Assembly (NCBI GenBank): GCA_035703895.1
Contig: DASSXJ010000212.1
Coordinates: forward strand, 1-38,579
Origin: a bacterium
GTDB taxonomy: Bacteria; Sysuimicrobiota; Sysuimicrobiia; Sysuimicrobiales; Segetimicrobiaceae
Length of the DNA: 38,579 nucleotides
Direction: 5' to 3'
This document shows positions 2,478-35,354 of the stretch, one piece after another. Under the pieces are notes generated by a model. That model was given only the letters and a program-made list of their open reading frames with translations. It did not search any database and was not told the origin of the DNA. Position 1 is the stretch's first letter. Every line of letters starts with the position of its first letter. The position numbers and the translations under genes are program-made.

Positions 2478-3564
2478 GCAGGCTCCTCGGCGGAGCCGGA
2501 GCCCTCAGGCCCTGGCTTGGCGGCAACTACGCAAGCATCGTGTCGCCATGGCCGGCGGCGCGATCCTCCTGGCGCTCTATACGCTGGCGGTCTTCGCCGA
2601 CGTCGTCGCCCCCTATTCCCTGGACTTCGCCGACCGGGAACATTTCTACCACCCCCCGCTCCTCCCTCGGTTTGTCGACGCCGAAGGGCGGCTTCATCTC
2701 CGCCCGTTCGTCTATGAAACGGTGACCGACAATCCCGGCCTGCGGACGTATCGGATCAATCGGGCACGGCTGTTCCAGGTGAAACTCCTCGCCCAAGGCG
2801 AACCCCACCACGTCCTCTGGGTGGTCCCAACGACCATCCATATGTTTGGTGTGGATCCGCCGGGGCGGATCTTCCTCTTGGGAACGGACCAGTTTGGTCG
2901 GGACGTGTTCAGCAGGATCCTCTACGGTTCCCGGGTGTCCCTCATTATCGGGCTCCTAGTGGTCTCGATCATCCTCCCGATCGGGATGGTCTACGGCGGG
3001 ATCGCAGGCTACTACGGAGGCCGCATCGACAACGCCATGATGCGGATCGTCGAGGTGATCCTTGGGTTCCCTGCCTTCTATCTGCTGCTGACGCTGAGCG
3101 CGATCCTACCAACCAGGGTCGGCTGCACCACGCGGTTCTACTTGATCGTCGTGATCATCAGCTTCATCGGCTGGACCGGGCTCTCGCGGCTGATTCGGGG
3201 TATCGTGCTGCCGATGAAGGAGCAGGAGTTCATCCTGGCGGCCCGGGCGATCGGGGTGGGCGACCTCCGCATTCTCGTCCGACACATCCTTCCCAATACG
3301 ACCTCGCTTGTCGTGGTCGTCGCTACGCTCAGTGTTCCCGGGTCGATCCTGGGCGAGTCTGGGTTGAGCTTTCTCGGATTCGGCGTGCGGGAACCCTGCG
3401 CCTCTTGGGGCAACCTGCTGTCGGCCGGGGCGAATCTCCCCAATCTCATCAACGCGCCGTGGCTGTTGGTGCCGGGCCTGTTCATCATTCTCACCGTCGT
3501 CGCGTACAATTTTCTCGGCGACGGGCTGCGCGACGCGCTCGACCCTCGCCTGCGTGTCGGGTAG
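2470..3564 (+). CDS. ABC transporter permease, DppC/OppC type, with enlarged first periplasmic loop
   Basis: Second membrane subunit (364 residues). I choose the ATG at 2470 because it overlaps the stop of the dppB-like gene; an in-frame extension to 2413 would run through that gene. The first helix (about residues 26-45) is followed by roughly 90 periplasmic residues before the conserved LGTDQFGRDVFSRILYGSR block, about 60 more than in ordinary DppC proteins. The EAA loop is FILAARAIGVGDLRILVRHI and the C-terminus DGLRDALDPRLRVG is canonical. It is the last gene of the plus-strand operon, with its stop 23 bases from the convergent hyuB-like stop. Confidence 0.92.
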   Translation: MTEQAPRRSRSPQALAWRQLRKHRVAMAGGAILLALYTLAVFADVVAPYSLDFADREHFYHPPLLPRFVDAEGRLHLRPFVYETVTDNPGLRTYRINRARLFQVKLLAQGEPHHVLWVVPTTIHMFGVDPPGRIFLLGTDQFGRDVFSRILYGSRVSLIIGLLVVSIILPIGMVYGGIAGYYGGRIDNAMMRIVEVILGFPAFYLLLTLSAILPTRVGCTTRFYLIVVIISFIGWTGLSRLIRGIVLPMKEQEFILAARAIGVGDLRILVRHILPNTTSLVVVVATLSVPGSILGESGLSFLGFGVREPCASWGNLLSAGANLPNLINAPWLLVPGLFIILTVVAYNFLGDGLRDALDPRLRVG

Positions 3565-16183: not shown

Positions 16184-17417
16184 TTGCAAGGATATCAGCA
16201 CCTGCGGGGGTTGGACAAGCAGGGAGTACGCTCGCTGCTGGACGTCGTTGCCGTGAGGGCGCGCAGCGAATGTTAATCGATGCGTTGGAGCGAGAAGTCG
16301 GACGAGTTTTTCGGGCGGGCGCGCTACGAGCACCGGGTCGGACGGCGGCGCGGGTATCGGAATGGCATCGGAAAGCCGCGGAAGATCGCCGTGGGGTGCG
16401 GGACGCTGGAGATCCGGGCCCTACGGGTGCGCGAGACGGACGAACCCTTCCGCTCGCAGCTCTTGCCACGATATCAACGGTCGAGCCAGACTGTCCGCGC
16501 GCTGCTGCCGGAGCTCTACCTCCAAGGCCTGGCCACGGGCGATTTCGAGCCGGCCCTGCGCACGCTGCTGGGAGAGGCCGCCCCGCTCAGCCCCGCCTCG
16601 ATCGTGCGGCTCAAGGAGCAGTGGGTAGCGGAATACGAGGCATGGCAACGTCGCCCGCTCGATCCGCGCTATGCGTATTGCTGGGCCGATGGCTATTTGA
16701 AGGCCGGGCCCGAGGATGAGAAGACGGCCGTCCTGATCATCATCGGCGTCACCGCGGACGGCCGAAAAGAGCTGCTGGTCATGGTCGAAGGGTACCGAGA
16801 GCCCCGCGAGAGCTGGCGGGACGTCTTACGGGACCTGCGCCGGCGCGGTCTCAAAGAGATCCGGCTCTTCATCGGCGATGGGGGCCTGGGCTTGTGGGGC
16901 GCGGTCAAAGACGTCTATCCCAGGCCCGGCACCAGCTGTGCTGGTGTCATAAGCAGCTCAACGTGCTGGACAAACTCCCCCAACGGTTGCAGCCTGAGGC
17001 GAATGGGCTCGTCCGGAACATCTACACGGCTCCGACCCGGCTGAGGCAGAGGAGCGGATTGGGCGGTTCGCGCAGTGCTTTGCGCGGGACTACCCGCGGG
17101 GCGTGGCGTCGCTCGTCGATCATCAGACGGAGTTGCTCACCTACTACGACTTCCCGCGGGAGCACTGGAAGAGTTTGCGCACGTCCAACCCGATCGAGTC
17201 GGTCTTCGACCCGTTCCGGTTGCGGACGCGGGCGACCCGGCGGATGCGAACGGCGCGGACGGGCCTGTACCTGGTCTTCCAACTGGTACGACGGGCGGAA
17301 CGCCGGTGGCGGCGCATCGACGCACCGCACGTGGTGGTGAAGGTGCTCGACGGTGTTCAGTTCGTAGATGGAGTGGAGGTTATCGAGTCAGCAAGAAAGC
17401 GGAGGGCGGTCGCTTGA
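16184..17417 (+). pseudogene. IS256 (mutator) family transposase, frameshifted
   Basis: Reassembling three frames gives one IS256-type transposase of normal length, about 400 residues. It probably begins at TTG 16184 (AAGGAG 7 bases upstream) with LQGYQHLRGLDKQGVRSLLD. Four single-base shifts break it: near 16269 (one base missing), 16299 (one extra), 16920 (one missing) and 17040 (one missing). Catalytic region landmarks remain: Asp in CWADGYLKAG, Asp in LFIGDGGLGLWGAV, the LCWCHKQLNVL block and Glu in SNPIESVF, then the C-terminal RTRATRRMRTARTGLYLVFQ. It is either decayed or suffers from assembly indels; several shifts fall in short homopolymers. Confidence 0.88.
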
Positions 17418-32317: not shown

Positions 32318-33814
32318 CTACGGCTGCGCCGCCAGATCAGTGACGAACTGATTGGCCTTCGGGCTTCCGAATCCCGTAGTGAGGTCCCATCCTGCGGTCG
32401 TCGGCATGCCCGGAACGCCCGAGCCGTACTCGGCGTTGCTGTTAAGCGTGGTCACCCCCGCGCCGGTCCCGAACGCGAGGGGCACGATGTCAAGGAAGTC
32501 GGCGGCTGGCAGTTGGTAGAGCCTGGGGTTCAGATACCCCACCGGACCCTTCCCCGCCTGAGCCCGCATCTGGTTGGCCACGGCGATGAGCGCCGTGAGC
32601 TGGGGCGATGCGGCACTCGTCCCACCAACGGTATGCCATCCCAAGCGCACGCCGGGGAAGCTCGTGTACACGAGTACCCCGCCGTTCACCGCCGCGTTCC
32701 AGGACAGATCGGGAATGCCACGACGGCCCTGCAAATTCGGGATGCCGGACTGGAAGGCCGGGGTGGCGAACAGCACGCTGCGCCCGCCCCCGGTCGCGAT
32801 CCGATCCCAGTCTTCTTTCCATACCGCTTCGGTCCGCCCGCCCGGAACGACGTTGAAGTTTAAGTAACTGGCCCGGCAGGTGTTGACAGGGGTGCCTGCC
32901 GCCAAGCAGGTGAAATAGGTGGACGCTTGGACTGTCGGGTTCCATCGCCAGCCGAACTGCAGCCAAGTTCCCCCTGCCGAGGTCACCAGCGGGTCCGACG
33001 ACGGCCAGTTCACGGTCGGGAAGGGGAACACCCGCATCTGTTTGTCGACGTTCGCGGTGCCAGTGTCGCCGCTCGAGCCCAGCACGGTCATCCCGTTCGC
33101 AGCGGCCTGCTGGTAGATCTTGTCGAACCGCGCCACCTGCGGATCCCCGGCCCCGTGGAACGACTGCTCGGTGGCCGCGAAGCTCTGGCTCATGGCCGAG
33201 CCCGGGAAGTTGACCGTCGCGATCTCTTCGCCCTTGAGCATGTTCGGGAACCCCTGTACATCCTCGGTCTCGGACGGGACGGTCGCGATCAAGACGATCT
33301 TTGCGTCGGGCGCGATGGCATGAGCCCATTGCAGATCCAGGCTGGTCTCGACGGCCCAGCCGACCGGGGCGCCGTTGACCGAGTTGTTGAAGGGCGGTGT
33401 GCCGTCCGGGTGGATGATCGTGAGGTCCGGCTGGGGCAGGCCGAAGGTGGTGCTGAAGACCTGTAGATCGTGCAGGGCTGTCGGGCTGCCGTACGAGTCG
33501 ACAATGACGATCGTCTGCCCCGCCCCGGCGTTACGTGGGTTCGCATTATGGAGGGCGCCGACGCCGTAGGCGGCATAGATATCGGACGGGGCATAGCAGT
33601 GGATGAAAGCCGACTTGAACACCGGCGCCGGGGTGATGCATGCCGCAGCAGCAGCAGGGATCGCCGCCTGATCGGGCTCATCGGGTGCCACAGCGACGAG
33701 CGGCACGAACTGCAGGATCCCGCGGGGCGTAGGCGACCCCGCCACAGCCACCGCTGCGACGAGGGTGAAGATCGCGAACAGGGCCGGACGCGTCCAGGTC
33801 CGAAATCGTGGCAT
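32318..33814 (-). CDS. Sedolisin-like (S53) secreted serine peptidase, propeptide missing
   Basis: A 498-residue exported protein with a signal peptide (ALFAIFTLVAAVAVAG) and an S53 catalytic domain. The catalytic triad is recognisable: Glu156 and Asp160 (GWAVETSLDLQWAHA), Asp250 for the oxyanion hole (GSSGDTGTA) and Ser400 (GGTSAASPQL). The calcium-binding end is GWDLTTGFGSPKAN. Ordinary sedolisins carry a propeptide of about 180 residues; only about 55 residues lie between the signal and the catalytic domain here, so it seems to lack it. The protein lies 91 bases upstream of the prepilin trio on the same strand. It may act at acid pH like its family (known of the family, not visible here). 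Confidence 0.88.
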   Translation of the reverse strand: MPRFRTWTRPALFAIFTLVAAVAVAGSPTPRGILQFVPLVAVAPDEPDQAAIPAAAAACITPAPVFKSAFIHCYAPSDIYAAYGVGALHNANPRNAGAGQTIVIVDSYGSPTALHDLQVFSTTFGLPQPDLTIIHPDGTPPFNNSVNGAPVGWAVETSLDLQWAHAIAPDAKIVLIATVPSETEDVQGFPNMLKGEEIATVNFPGSAMSQSFAATEQSFHGAGDPQVARFDKIYQQAAANGMTVLGSSGDTGTANVDKQMRVFPFPTVNWPSSDPLVTSAGGTWLQFGWRWNPTVQASTYFTCLAAGTPVNTCRASYLNFNVVPGGRTEAVWKEDWDRIATGGGRSVLFATPAFQSGIPNLQGRRGIPDLSWNAAVNGGVLVYTSFPGVRLGWHTVGGTSAASPQLTALIAVANQMRAQAGKGPVGYLNPRLYQLPAADFLDIVPLAFGTGAGVTTLNSNAEYGSGVPGMPTTAGWDLTTGFGSPKANQFVTDLAAQP

Positions 33815-34045: not shown

Positions 34046-34080
34046 TGGAGCGGGAAACGGGACTCGAACCCGTTTCCCGC
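34046..34080 (-). other. tRNA acceptor/T-arm minihelix-like hairpin with CCA
   Basis: Read on the minus strand, GCGGGAA pairs with TTCCCGC as a 7-base-pair acceptor stem, and ACGGG with CCCGT as a 5-base-pair T stem, closed by a T-loop TTCGAGT; a single unpaired T and CCA follow at 34046-34049. D, anticodon and variable parts are absent: the 5' acceptor strand is joined directly to the T stem. The plus-strand frame here reads ERETGLEPV, a phrase commonly produced by mis-translating antisense tRNA. It may be a tRNA deletion relic, a tRNA-like RNA, or a terminator 20 bases beyond the stop of the minus-strand gene. Confidence 0.6.
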
Positions 34081-34100
34081 TTTATGACCGGGCTCGCGGG

Positions 34101-35354
34101 TCAGCGCACGGAGACCTCGACGCTGGCCGGGTCGGACTGGACGCCGTTTACGATCTCCACGGCGGAGATGACATACGGGAACGCCACAAAGGGAATCGAC
34201 GAGACGTTCATGTCCACCCTCCAGCGCCCCGCCTTATTGGCGACGGTCTGCTGCTGGATCGTGTTTCCGAGCAGACGCGGTTGCGCCTTGACGACGACGA
34301 TCGCCCCTGGGCTCGCCGAGCCTTCCACCGAGAACGCGTTTCCGACCGTTGCCCCGTTGCCGGGGACGGCGATCGACGGCGCGGAGACGACGGTGACGGT
34401 CGGGGTCTGCGCCGATGTGTCGGCCACGTTCACTTCGTAGGCCTCATTGGTCCCTTCGATAACCAGGAAGCGGGCGTTGCGCCCGTTCTGGAACGCGCCG
34501 AAGTCCGCCGCCTGACCGTTCAGGGTGATCCTGGCGTCATTGAGGACGACGAATGACACACCGCTGGTAAGCGTGACGGTACGGTTCCGGCCGTTCACCG
34601 TCGCGATCCGGCCGGACGCGCCGACCCGGTACTGTGCGGTGATCTTCACCGCTTGGTTCTGGCCGTTCATGTCAACCACGACGTGATCGCCGCGCTGGAG
34701 CGCCCCGAGCGGCGCGGAGCCGCCCGCATTACCCTGCGCATTGTAGCGGAAGATGGCCGTCTCGGGCAGGACCGGAATCGTGTAGTCTTGGTTGTTGCTC
34801 CGGACGACAATCTGAGGGTGGTCACCGGACGATACGGACATGAGCCGCCCCGAGAGCGTCTGGCCCGGCGACGGTGCCGGGGGTGGGGTCTGTAGAATCG
34901 GGGGCGGCGGCGTGCCGGCACCGGTCGAGCCAATCAGGATCGTCTGGCTTGCCTCAACCCACTGCACGTTTGCCCCGAGCGACTCGCTGATGAAGCGGAG
35001 CGGGACCATCGTCCTGCCCGCGATCGTGAAGGCTGGAACGTCGAGCAGGGCCGCGTTAGAATTGACGCGCGCCTGTCGCGACCCGATGGTCAACTCCACC
35101 GTCTGCGGTCCCCGAACCGCAACGATATGCTGCGTTTGGGGGTCGAAGTCGACCGTGGCCCCAAGGCGCTCAAAGATCCCCCGCAACGGCACAAGCACCC
35201 GCCCCTGGATCATACTGGGCGGCACGTCAAACGAGAGCGGCTGCCCATCGACGTACACTCGAATAGGCGCCTGTTGCGCGAACACACCAGCAGGCAACAT
35301 CAAACTCACTGCAACAACGAGGCTCACGAGCAGCGAAACGTTACGCCGCATCAT
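34101..35354 (-). CDS. Secreted protein with copper amine oxidase N-terminal-like domain and Ig-like C-terminus
   Basis: A 417-residue exported protein. After a signal peptide (SLLVSLVVAVSLMLPAGVFA) there is a CuAO_N-type domain with two VPLR motifs (GRVLVPLRGIFERLGATVDF and TMVPLRFISESLGANVQW, residues about 30-145), a proline-rich linker (PPPPILQTPPPAPSPG), beta-rich repeats concerned with QxVxV patterns, and a C-terminal Ig-like domain (PSIAVPGNGATVGNAFSVEG). Such proteins are frequent in Bacillota and related lineages and probably bind envelope polymers; no catalytic oxidase domain is present. GGAGGGAGGA lies directly before ATGATG, so the start is 35354 or 35351. The minihelix-like hairpin lies 20 bases after its stop. 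Confidence 0.85.
   Translation of the reverse strand: MMRRNVSLLVSLVVAVSLMLPAGVFAQQAPIRVYVDGQPLSFDVPPSMIQGRVLVPLRGIFERLGATVDFDPQTQHIVAVRGPQTVELTIGSRQARVNSNAALLDVPAFTIAGRTMVPLRFISESLGANVQWVEASQTILIGSTGAGTPPPPILQTPPPAPSPGQTLSGRLMSVSSGDHPQIVVRSNNQDYTIPVLPETAIFRYNAQGNAGGSAPLGALQRGDHVVVDMNGQNQAVKITAQYRVGASGRIATVNGRNRTVTLTSGVSFVVLNDARITLNGQAADFGAFQNGRNARFLVIEGTNEAYEVNVADTSAQTPTVTVVSAPSIAVPGNGATVGNAFSVEGSASPGAIVVVKAQPRLLGNTIQQQTVANKAGRWRVDMNVSSIPFVAFPYVISAVEIVNGVQSDPASVEVSVR

Follow-up and report, generated by a model that had tools for sequence, protein, structure and literature searches.

It is close to certain, judging from its letters, that the tRNA-like hairpin at positions 34046-34080 (minus strand) of the window (the whole stretch of 38,579 nucleotides analyzed here, from a draft genome of the Segetimicrobiaceae) originated from a tRNA-Gly. 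The best explanation, to which we give about an even chance, is that it is an attachment-site scar from tRNA-Gly(CCC) that was perfected by a template switch and now forms a terminator-like hairpin at the end of a gene. In such a sequence of events, integration of a mobile element at the tRNA gene would have left a displaced tRNA-Gly(CCC) 3' fragment as the scar; the left half of that scar would then have been rewritten, probably by one replication template switch, so as to pair at every position with the 3' strand of the acceptor; and the resulting hairpin would most likely be the 3' end of the Cu_amine_oxidN1 mRNA, acting either as a U-tract-less (I-shaped) terminator or as a barrier to 3' exonucleases. 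The scar would be the origin and the terminator the present role, and the two are not mutually exclusive. The features are as follows:

34046..34080, minus strand: tRNA-Gly(CCC)-derived minihelix (acceptor stem, T stem, T-loop, discriminator and CCA), 34/35 identical to tRNA positions 1-7 + 49-76
34046..34072, minus strand: 27 bases shared without mismatch with the 3' terminus of the intact tRNA-Gly(CCC) gene, G000:C259:1381-1456
34069..34081, minus strand: 5' arm AGCGGGAAACGGG, perfectly reverse-complementary to the 3' arm, with 34081 as the partner of the discriminator T
34062..34068, minus strand: T-loop TTCGAGT
34049..34061, minus strand: 3' arm CCCGTTTCCCGCT (3' strand of the T stem, 3' strand of the acceptor stem, discriminator T)
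34046..34048, minus strand: CCA end, followed by CCGTTAG without a T run
34101..35354, minus strand: upstream gene for a Cu_amine_oxidN1-domain protein of 417 aa (PF07833, 7e-37; orthologues 58-67% identical)
32318..33814, minus strand: downstream gene for a sedolisin (S53)-like protease, assigned by inspection, Pfam giving no match; synteny with relatives is absent

Read on the minus strand from 34080 to 34046, the letters are GCGGGAA-ACGGG-TTCGAGT-CCCGT-TTCCCGC-T-CCA: an acceptor stem of 7 bp and a T stem of 5 bp, all 12 pairs Watson-Crick, closed by the T-loop and ending in CCA, exactly as the first-pass annotation had described. That annotation had further counted a 12-bp stem followed by one unpaired base; the 12 pairs stand, but the discriminator T, supposedly left single, has an A opposite it at 34081, so that the stem is in fact 13 bp long, and pairing ends at the next base. 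The folding energy of the 13-bp helix is -25.7 kcal/mol (z = -5.6; 0 of 200 shuffles equally good). The structure is not a full cloverleaf: the acceptor stem is joined directly to the T stem, with zero bases between them. ARAGORN reported no tRNA and Rfam no family at its gathering threshold in the window, and the tRNA family RF00005 gave no match either in the window or, when the hairpin's own genome was searched, at the hairpin site.

The tRNA nature of the element is nonetheless borne out by its source, which can be narrowed to tRNA-Gly(CCC). The first-pass annotation had proposed looking for an intact tRNA with a matching acceptor stem and T-arm, and the single tRNA-Gly(CCC) gene of the same genome (intact, contig C259:1381-1456) proved to be one: the 27 bases from 34072 to 34046, CGGGTTCGAGTCCCGTTTCCCGCTCCA, are its 3' end through CCA, 27/27, the identity with an intact tDNA of the same genome that would be expected of an attachment scar. 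Joining tRNA positions 1-7 and 49-76 gives GCGGGAAGCGGGTTCGAGTCCCGTTTCCCGCTCCA, and its sole difference from the window is at position 49, where the tRNA has G and the window A. Because much of a perfect hairpin is forced by pairing, we restricted the chance estimate to the 23 independent bases (loop, 3' arm and CCA) that equal tRNA-Gly(CCC); at the base composition of the genome, such a match is expected about 2e-7 times, in agreement with the earlier opinion that the geometry is hard to ascribe to chance.

The Islander paper describes a displaced tRNA 3' end as what integration into tRNA genes ordinarily leaves behind, with crossovers in the T-loop or at the T/acceptor junction in 1836 of its 3919 tDNA islands, about half (PMC4383910). 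In the family, the same tDNA appears to have been targeted repeatedly: tRNA-Gly(CCC) 3' fragments lacking the full tRNA are found in relatives (G005:C51, G005:C53, G005:C34:165, G003:C285 and G008:C81:22177), and a decayed one lies in the genome of the hairpin itself (G000:C106). The fragment at G008:C81:22177 follows the intact gene by 2.5 kb as a direct repeat. At this locus (L226), the intact tRNA (615-690) and the fragment (at 3178) flank short ORFs, one of them nucleotidyltransferase-like, possibly a small mobile element; no integrase was seen there. At G005:C53 (L036, 1987-2021), the CCA of the fragment is followed in frame by AQAGHADAGLTINRYGHLFNS, by inspection the C-terminal motif of a tyrosine integrase, and fragment and integrase remnant together look like a typical island scar. 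Comparable arrangements involve other tRNAs and other hosts: PF00589 matches adjoin tRNA-Ala ends at G002:C41 and G002:C44 (at the former, a truncated tRNA-Ala at 1936 adjoins a PF00589 fragment at 2105), and in phages of Rhizobium and Arthrobacter, tRNA-Gly 3' ends adjoin the phages' own tyrosine integrases. A common motif like TCGCAAAGAATTCGAACC follows the CCA of tRNA ends or fragments at four loci (L229 in G002:C1, L232 in G001:C74, L245 and L233) and may mark the attachment arm of one element family.

The suggestion that the hairpin is an element scar using the T-arm is thus the option that best fits its origin, given the 27/27 identity and the fragments in relatives, but there is no integrase and no second att copy within the window, and PF00589 has no match in the contig of the hairpin (C212) or in that of the intact tRNA (C259), two contigs that are unjoined. 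GC level is unchanged across the hairpin site, which gives no compositional sign of an island. An ORF at 16280-17044 of the window, probably truncated, encodes by inspection an IS256/Mutator-type transposase. Counting further against the scar, the hairpin is known from one genome, its contig is unconnected to the intact tRNA, and the other fragments still have the 3' half of their anticodon arm, or as a minimum GGGTCG ahead of the T stem, while the window has 5/9 of those bases.

These bases also bear on how the left arm was made. The nine bases before the T-stem CGGG read AGAGGGTCG in the displaced fragments and in the intact gene and AGCGGGAAA in the window. AGAGGGTCG already pairs with the acceptor 3' strand at 5/9 positions, and the four window differences are exactly those that complete Watson-Crick pairing; copying of the 3' arm would yield AGCGGGAAACGGG, which is what the window has. 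Perfection of a hairpin in one event by template switching has been described for RNA hairpins (PMC8794818), and a single template switch (quasi-palindrome correction) probably made the left arm here, although the comparison was devised after the sequence had been seen and we offer it as an inference and not as a test. The main competitor for this step, also raised in the first-pass annotation, is that a precise internal deletion removed the D arm, anticodon arm and variable loop from a complete tRNA-Gly(CCC) copy at an ectopic site. Such a deletion would give nearly the same sequence: the tRNA is matched at its two ends (by AGCGGGAA, covering positions -1 to 7, and by the 27 bases of the 3' end), and the A at -1 is present in every sampled intact tRNA-Gly(CCC) gene, as it is in the window. 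It would, however, require exact endpoints, an ectopic copy of the full tRNA and an additional G49-to-A change that happens to perfect the pair, which the scar model accounts for within the same event; there is no similarity to the tRNA locus upstream of -1 or downstream of CCA, and the ectopic pieces of tRNA-Gly(CCC) in the sampled family genomes are 3' fragments. We therefore regard deletion as possible but rather unlikely.

What the hairpin does at present is best approached from the gene that it follows. The helix starts 19 bases 3' of the stop codon of the Cu_amine_oxidN1-domain gene. We read past the stop codon at eight orthologous loci (full-length relatives, 58-67% identical, from seven other genomes), and at seven of them a strong GC hairpin follows soon after the stop, with energies of -24 to -43 kcal/mol; the eighth (L070) has no obvious hairpin there. 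These hairpins are unrelated in sequence to that of the window, T-loop and CCA are absent from all seven, and U-tracts are mostly lacking (several are weak or none). Within the window, GC hairpins also follow the stops of an AIM24-type gene (11 pairs) and of an M19/convergent gene pair (9-11 pairs); at least 10 pairs occur in 4% of random 90-mers. Since gene-end hairpins are found both in relatives and in neighboring genes, the tRNA piece sits where a 3'-end hairpin is usually found. Varying stems without T-loop or CCA at homologous loci were the outcome that the first-pass annotation had said would indicate a terminator, and its competing idea, an unusual terminator for this gene, is the best fit for the present role; the canonical form of that idea does not hold, as the minus-strand tail, CCACCGTTAG, has no U run, and a scan for terminators omits the hairpin. 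GC-rich bacteria are known to have structured 3' ends that lack a U-tract (PMC8269248), and the strong 13-bp stem, 19 nt past the stop, has the form of one. Termination or 3' protection is accordingly what its position and fold suggest as the likeliest present role.

The same orthologues give room to a hybrid history, in which an element with a tRNA-Gly 3' end inserted into an old terminator of the Cu_amine_oxidN1 gene, a secondary attachment site, so that the 5' arm would come from the terminator and the 3' arm from the tRNA. Orthologues do have GC hairpins with GGGTCC...GGACCC cores at the same spot, and the region downstream is not syntenic; yet a perfect 13-bp pairing between arms of different derivation is hard to credit without later correction, and the nine upstream bases would have to match by chance (p ~3e-6). 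We consider this history improbable.

The downstream side departs from that of relatives. The sedolisin-like protease has a close relative in one genus member only, in another neighborhood, and several relatives have as downstream neighbor a small convergent gene, which in the sampled genus is found at other places; the downstream neighbor of the orthologues is on other contigs in G000, G001 and G002. No tRNA piece was seen beside the best copy of that neighbor in G000. The hairpin, with its non-syntenic downstream side, is therefore close to the edge of a rearrangement; this fits a mobile-element scar and would also fit an assembly join. That the hairpin is an assembly or amplification artefact (a snapback chimera) in a draft, probably metagenome-assembled genome of 337 contigs is conceivable, as hairpins and short repeats are typical chimera points and the downstream side lacks synteny with relatives; but the hairpin is inside a contig of 38.6 kb, the intact tRNA is resolved within a different contig, and the Cu_amine_oxidN1 gene with its stop-to-hairpin layout resembles that of relatives, and we rate an artefact as distinctly unlikely.

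The third origin proposed in the first-pass annotation, a new small tRNA-like RNA, has no support. A covariance model built from the acceptor and T halves of 29 family tRNAs, the check with missing arms that had been recommended, did find the site (47.6 bits, E = 6e-8 in a search of the window), and the hairpin was the top match across 12 family genomes (runner-up 37.4 bits). The other top loci inspected in those 12 genomes were truncated tRNA 3' ends or intact tRNAs, mostly tRNA-Ala, whose matches are explained by a variable loop resembling the acceptor strand. Among 43 genomes of the phylum, the hairpin was the only match at E <= 2e-4, the 42 others having none; because it is single-copy and no other phylum genome searched has it, no new RNA family is supported, and we rejected that reading. 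A genome-wide scan for the tRNA-Gly minihelix pattern retrieved, among the matches inspected, largely intact tRNAs with a variable loop reading GCGG; of the 129 matches listed, four were fully paired and none of these was then followed by TCCA. The exact hairpin was absent from phage sequences in an exact-match scan, and the exact 27-mer, where it occurred in viral contigs, lay six times out of seven within a tRNA-Gly gene carried by a phage (the remaining case was truncated by the edge of the stretch read). A covariance run over 386 genomes, in which no more than 18 candidates were scored in each, failed to recover the hairpin of the window itself, and its negatives were disregarded; its two matches were a tmRNA-like 3' end (L257) and a tRNA-Ala-like gene (L258). 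The former (G249:C259:13242-13276, GGAGGCCGCGGGTTCGATTCCCGCCGCCTCCACCA) lies 16 bases past a stop codon in an unrelated genome and is a possible parallel to the window hairpin, with a tRNA/tmRNA 3' fragment placed at the end of a gene. Intergenic hairpins on Rhizobiaceae plasmids (L273, L274), with arms resembling AGCGGGAAACGGG...CCCGTTTCCCGCT, were judged chance convergence of GC hairpins. Rfam matches to miRNA families and to mascRNA were far under their gathering scores (mascRNA-menRNA: 16.7 bits vs 42.5, E 0.5) and were set aside as chance products of the hairpin shape.

In mascRNA-type 3' ends of eukaryotes, RNase P cleaves at a tRNA-like helix. The window hairpin could conceivably be a working module of a similar kind, in which RNase P would cut the mRNA at the helix, set its 3' end and free a 35-nt, CCA-ended minihelix that glycyl-tRNA synthetase might charge. 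The 12-bp stacked acceptor/T helix with a 3' NCCA is a standard minimal substrate of bacterial RNase P (PMC11221534), and the glycine identity elements of the acceptor end, U73, G1-C72, C2-G71 and G3-C70 (set from PMC9976931), are all present. C35 and C36, the identity bases of the anticodon, are absent, however, the A-1/U73 pair may disturb RNase P, and one copy in one genome shows no conservation; we think it very unlikely that such a module operates here.

If the preferred account of a perfected attachment-site scar is true, it provides a concrete route to a gene-end hairpin in bacteria, from the tRNA scar of a mobile element to a perfect stem in one template-switch step. It also carries a warning: a perfect “minihelix with CCA” can come about and yet have no function as a small RNA. 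The hairpin is of interest as an evolutionary example, and a new class of RNA finds no support in it. Displaced tRNA fragments are common in bacterial genomes; therefore, the scar route could be a general, testable source of terminator-like or RNase-P-like elements.

Several known systems share parts of this picture. Like the attR tDNA fragments of Islander (PMC4383910), the hairpin contains, at a distance from the intact gene, a faithful duplicate of a tRNA 3' end that runs through CCA, it involves the T-arm region that is a known crossover subsite, and its tRNA is fragmented elsewhere in the family; unlike them, it shows no integrase or island between itself and the tRNA (the contigs being unjoined), and unlike the other displaced fragments examined, it has a 5' side that complements its 3' arm perfectly. 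With the I-shaped, U-lacking 3'-end hairpins (PMC8269248) it shares a strong GC stem shortly past the stop and the lack of a U-tract, as do the orthologous loci, but its sequence and loop are tRNA-derived and its role in termination is putative. As in template-switch hairpins (PMC8794818), its perfect stem could be obtained from a quasi-palindrome by one local copy-back; here the starting point would be a putative tRNA-derived scar, an ancestral state that we infer. Finally, the coaxial acceptor/T helix, T-loop and CCA are those of RNase P minihelix substrates and of mascRNA-like 3' ends, from which the window helix, a hypothetical substrate, differs in that its mascRNA-menRNA match is subthreshold.
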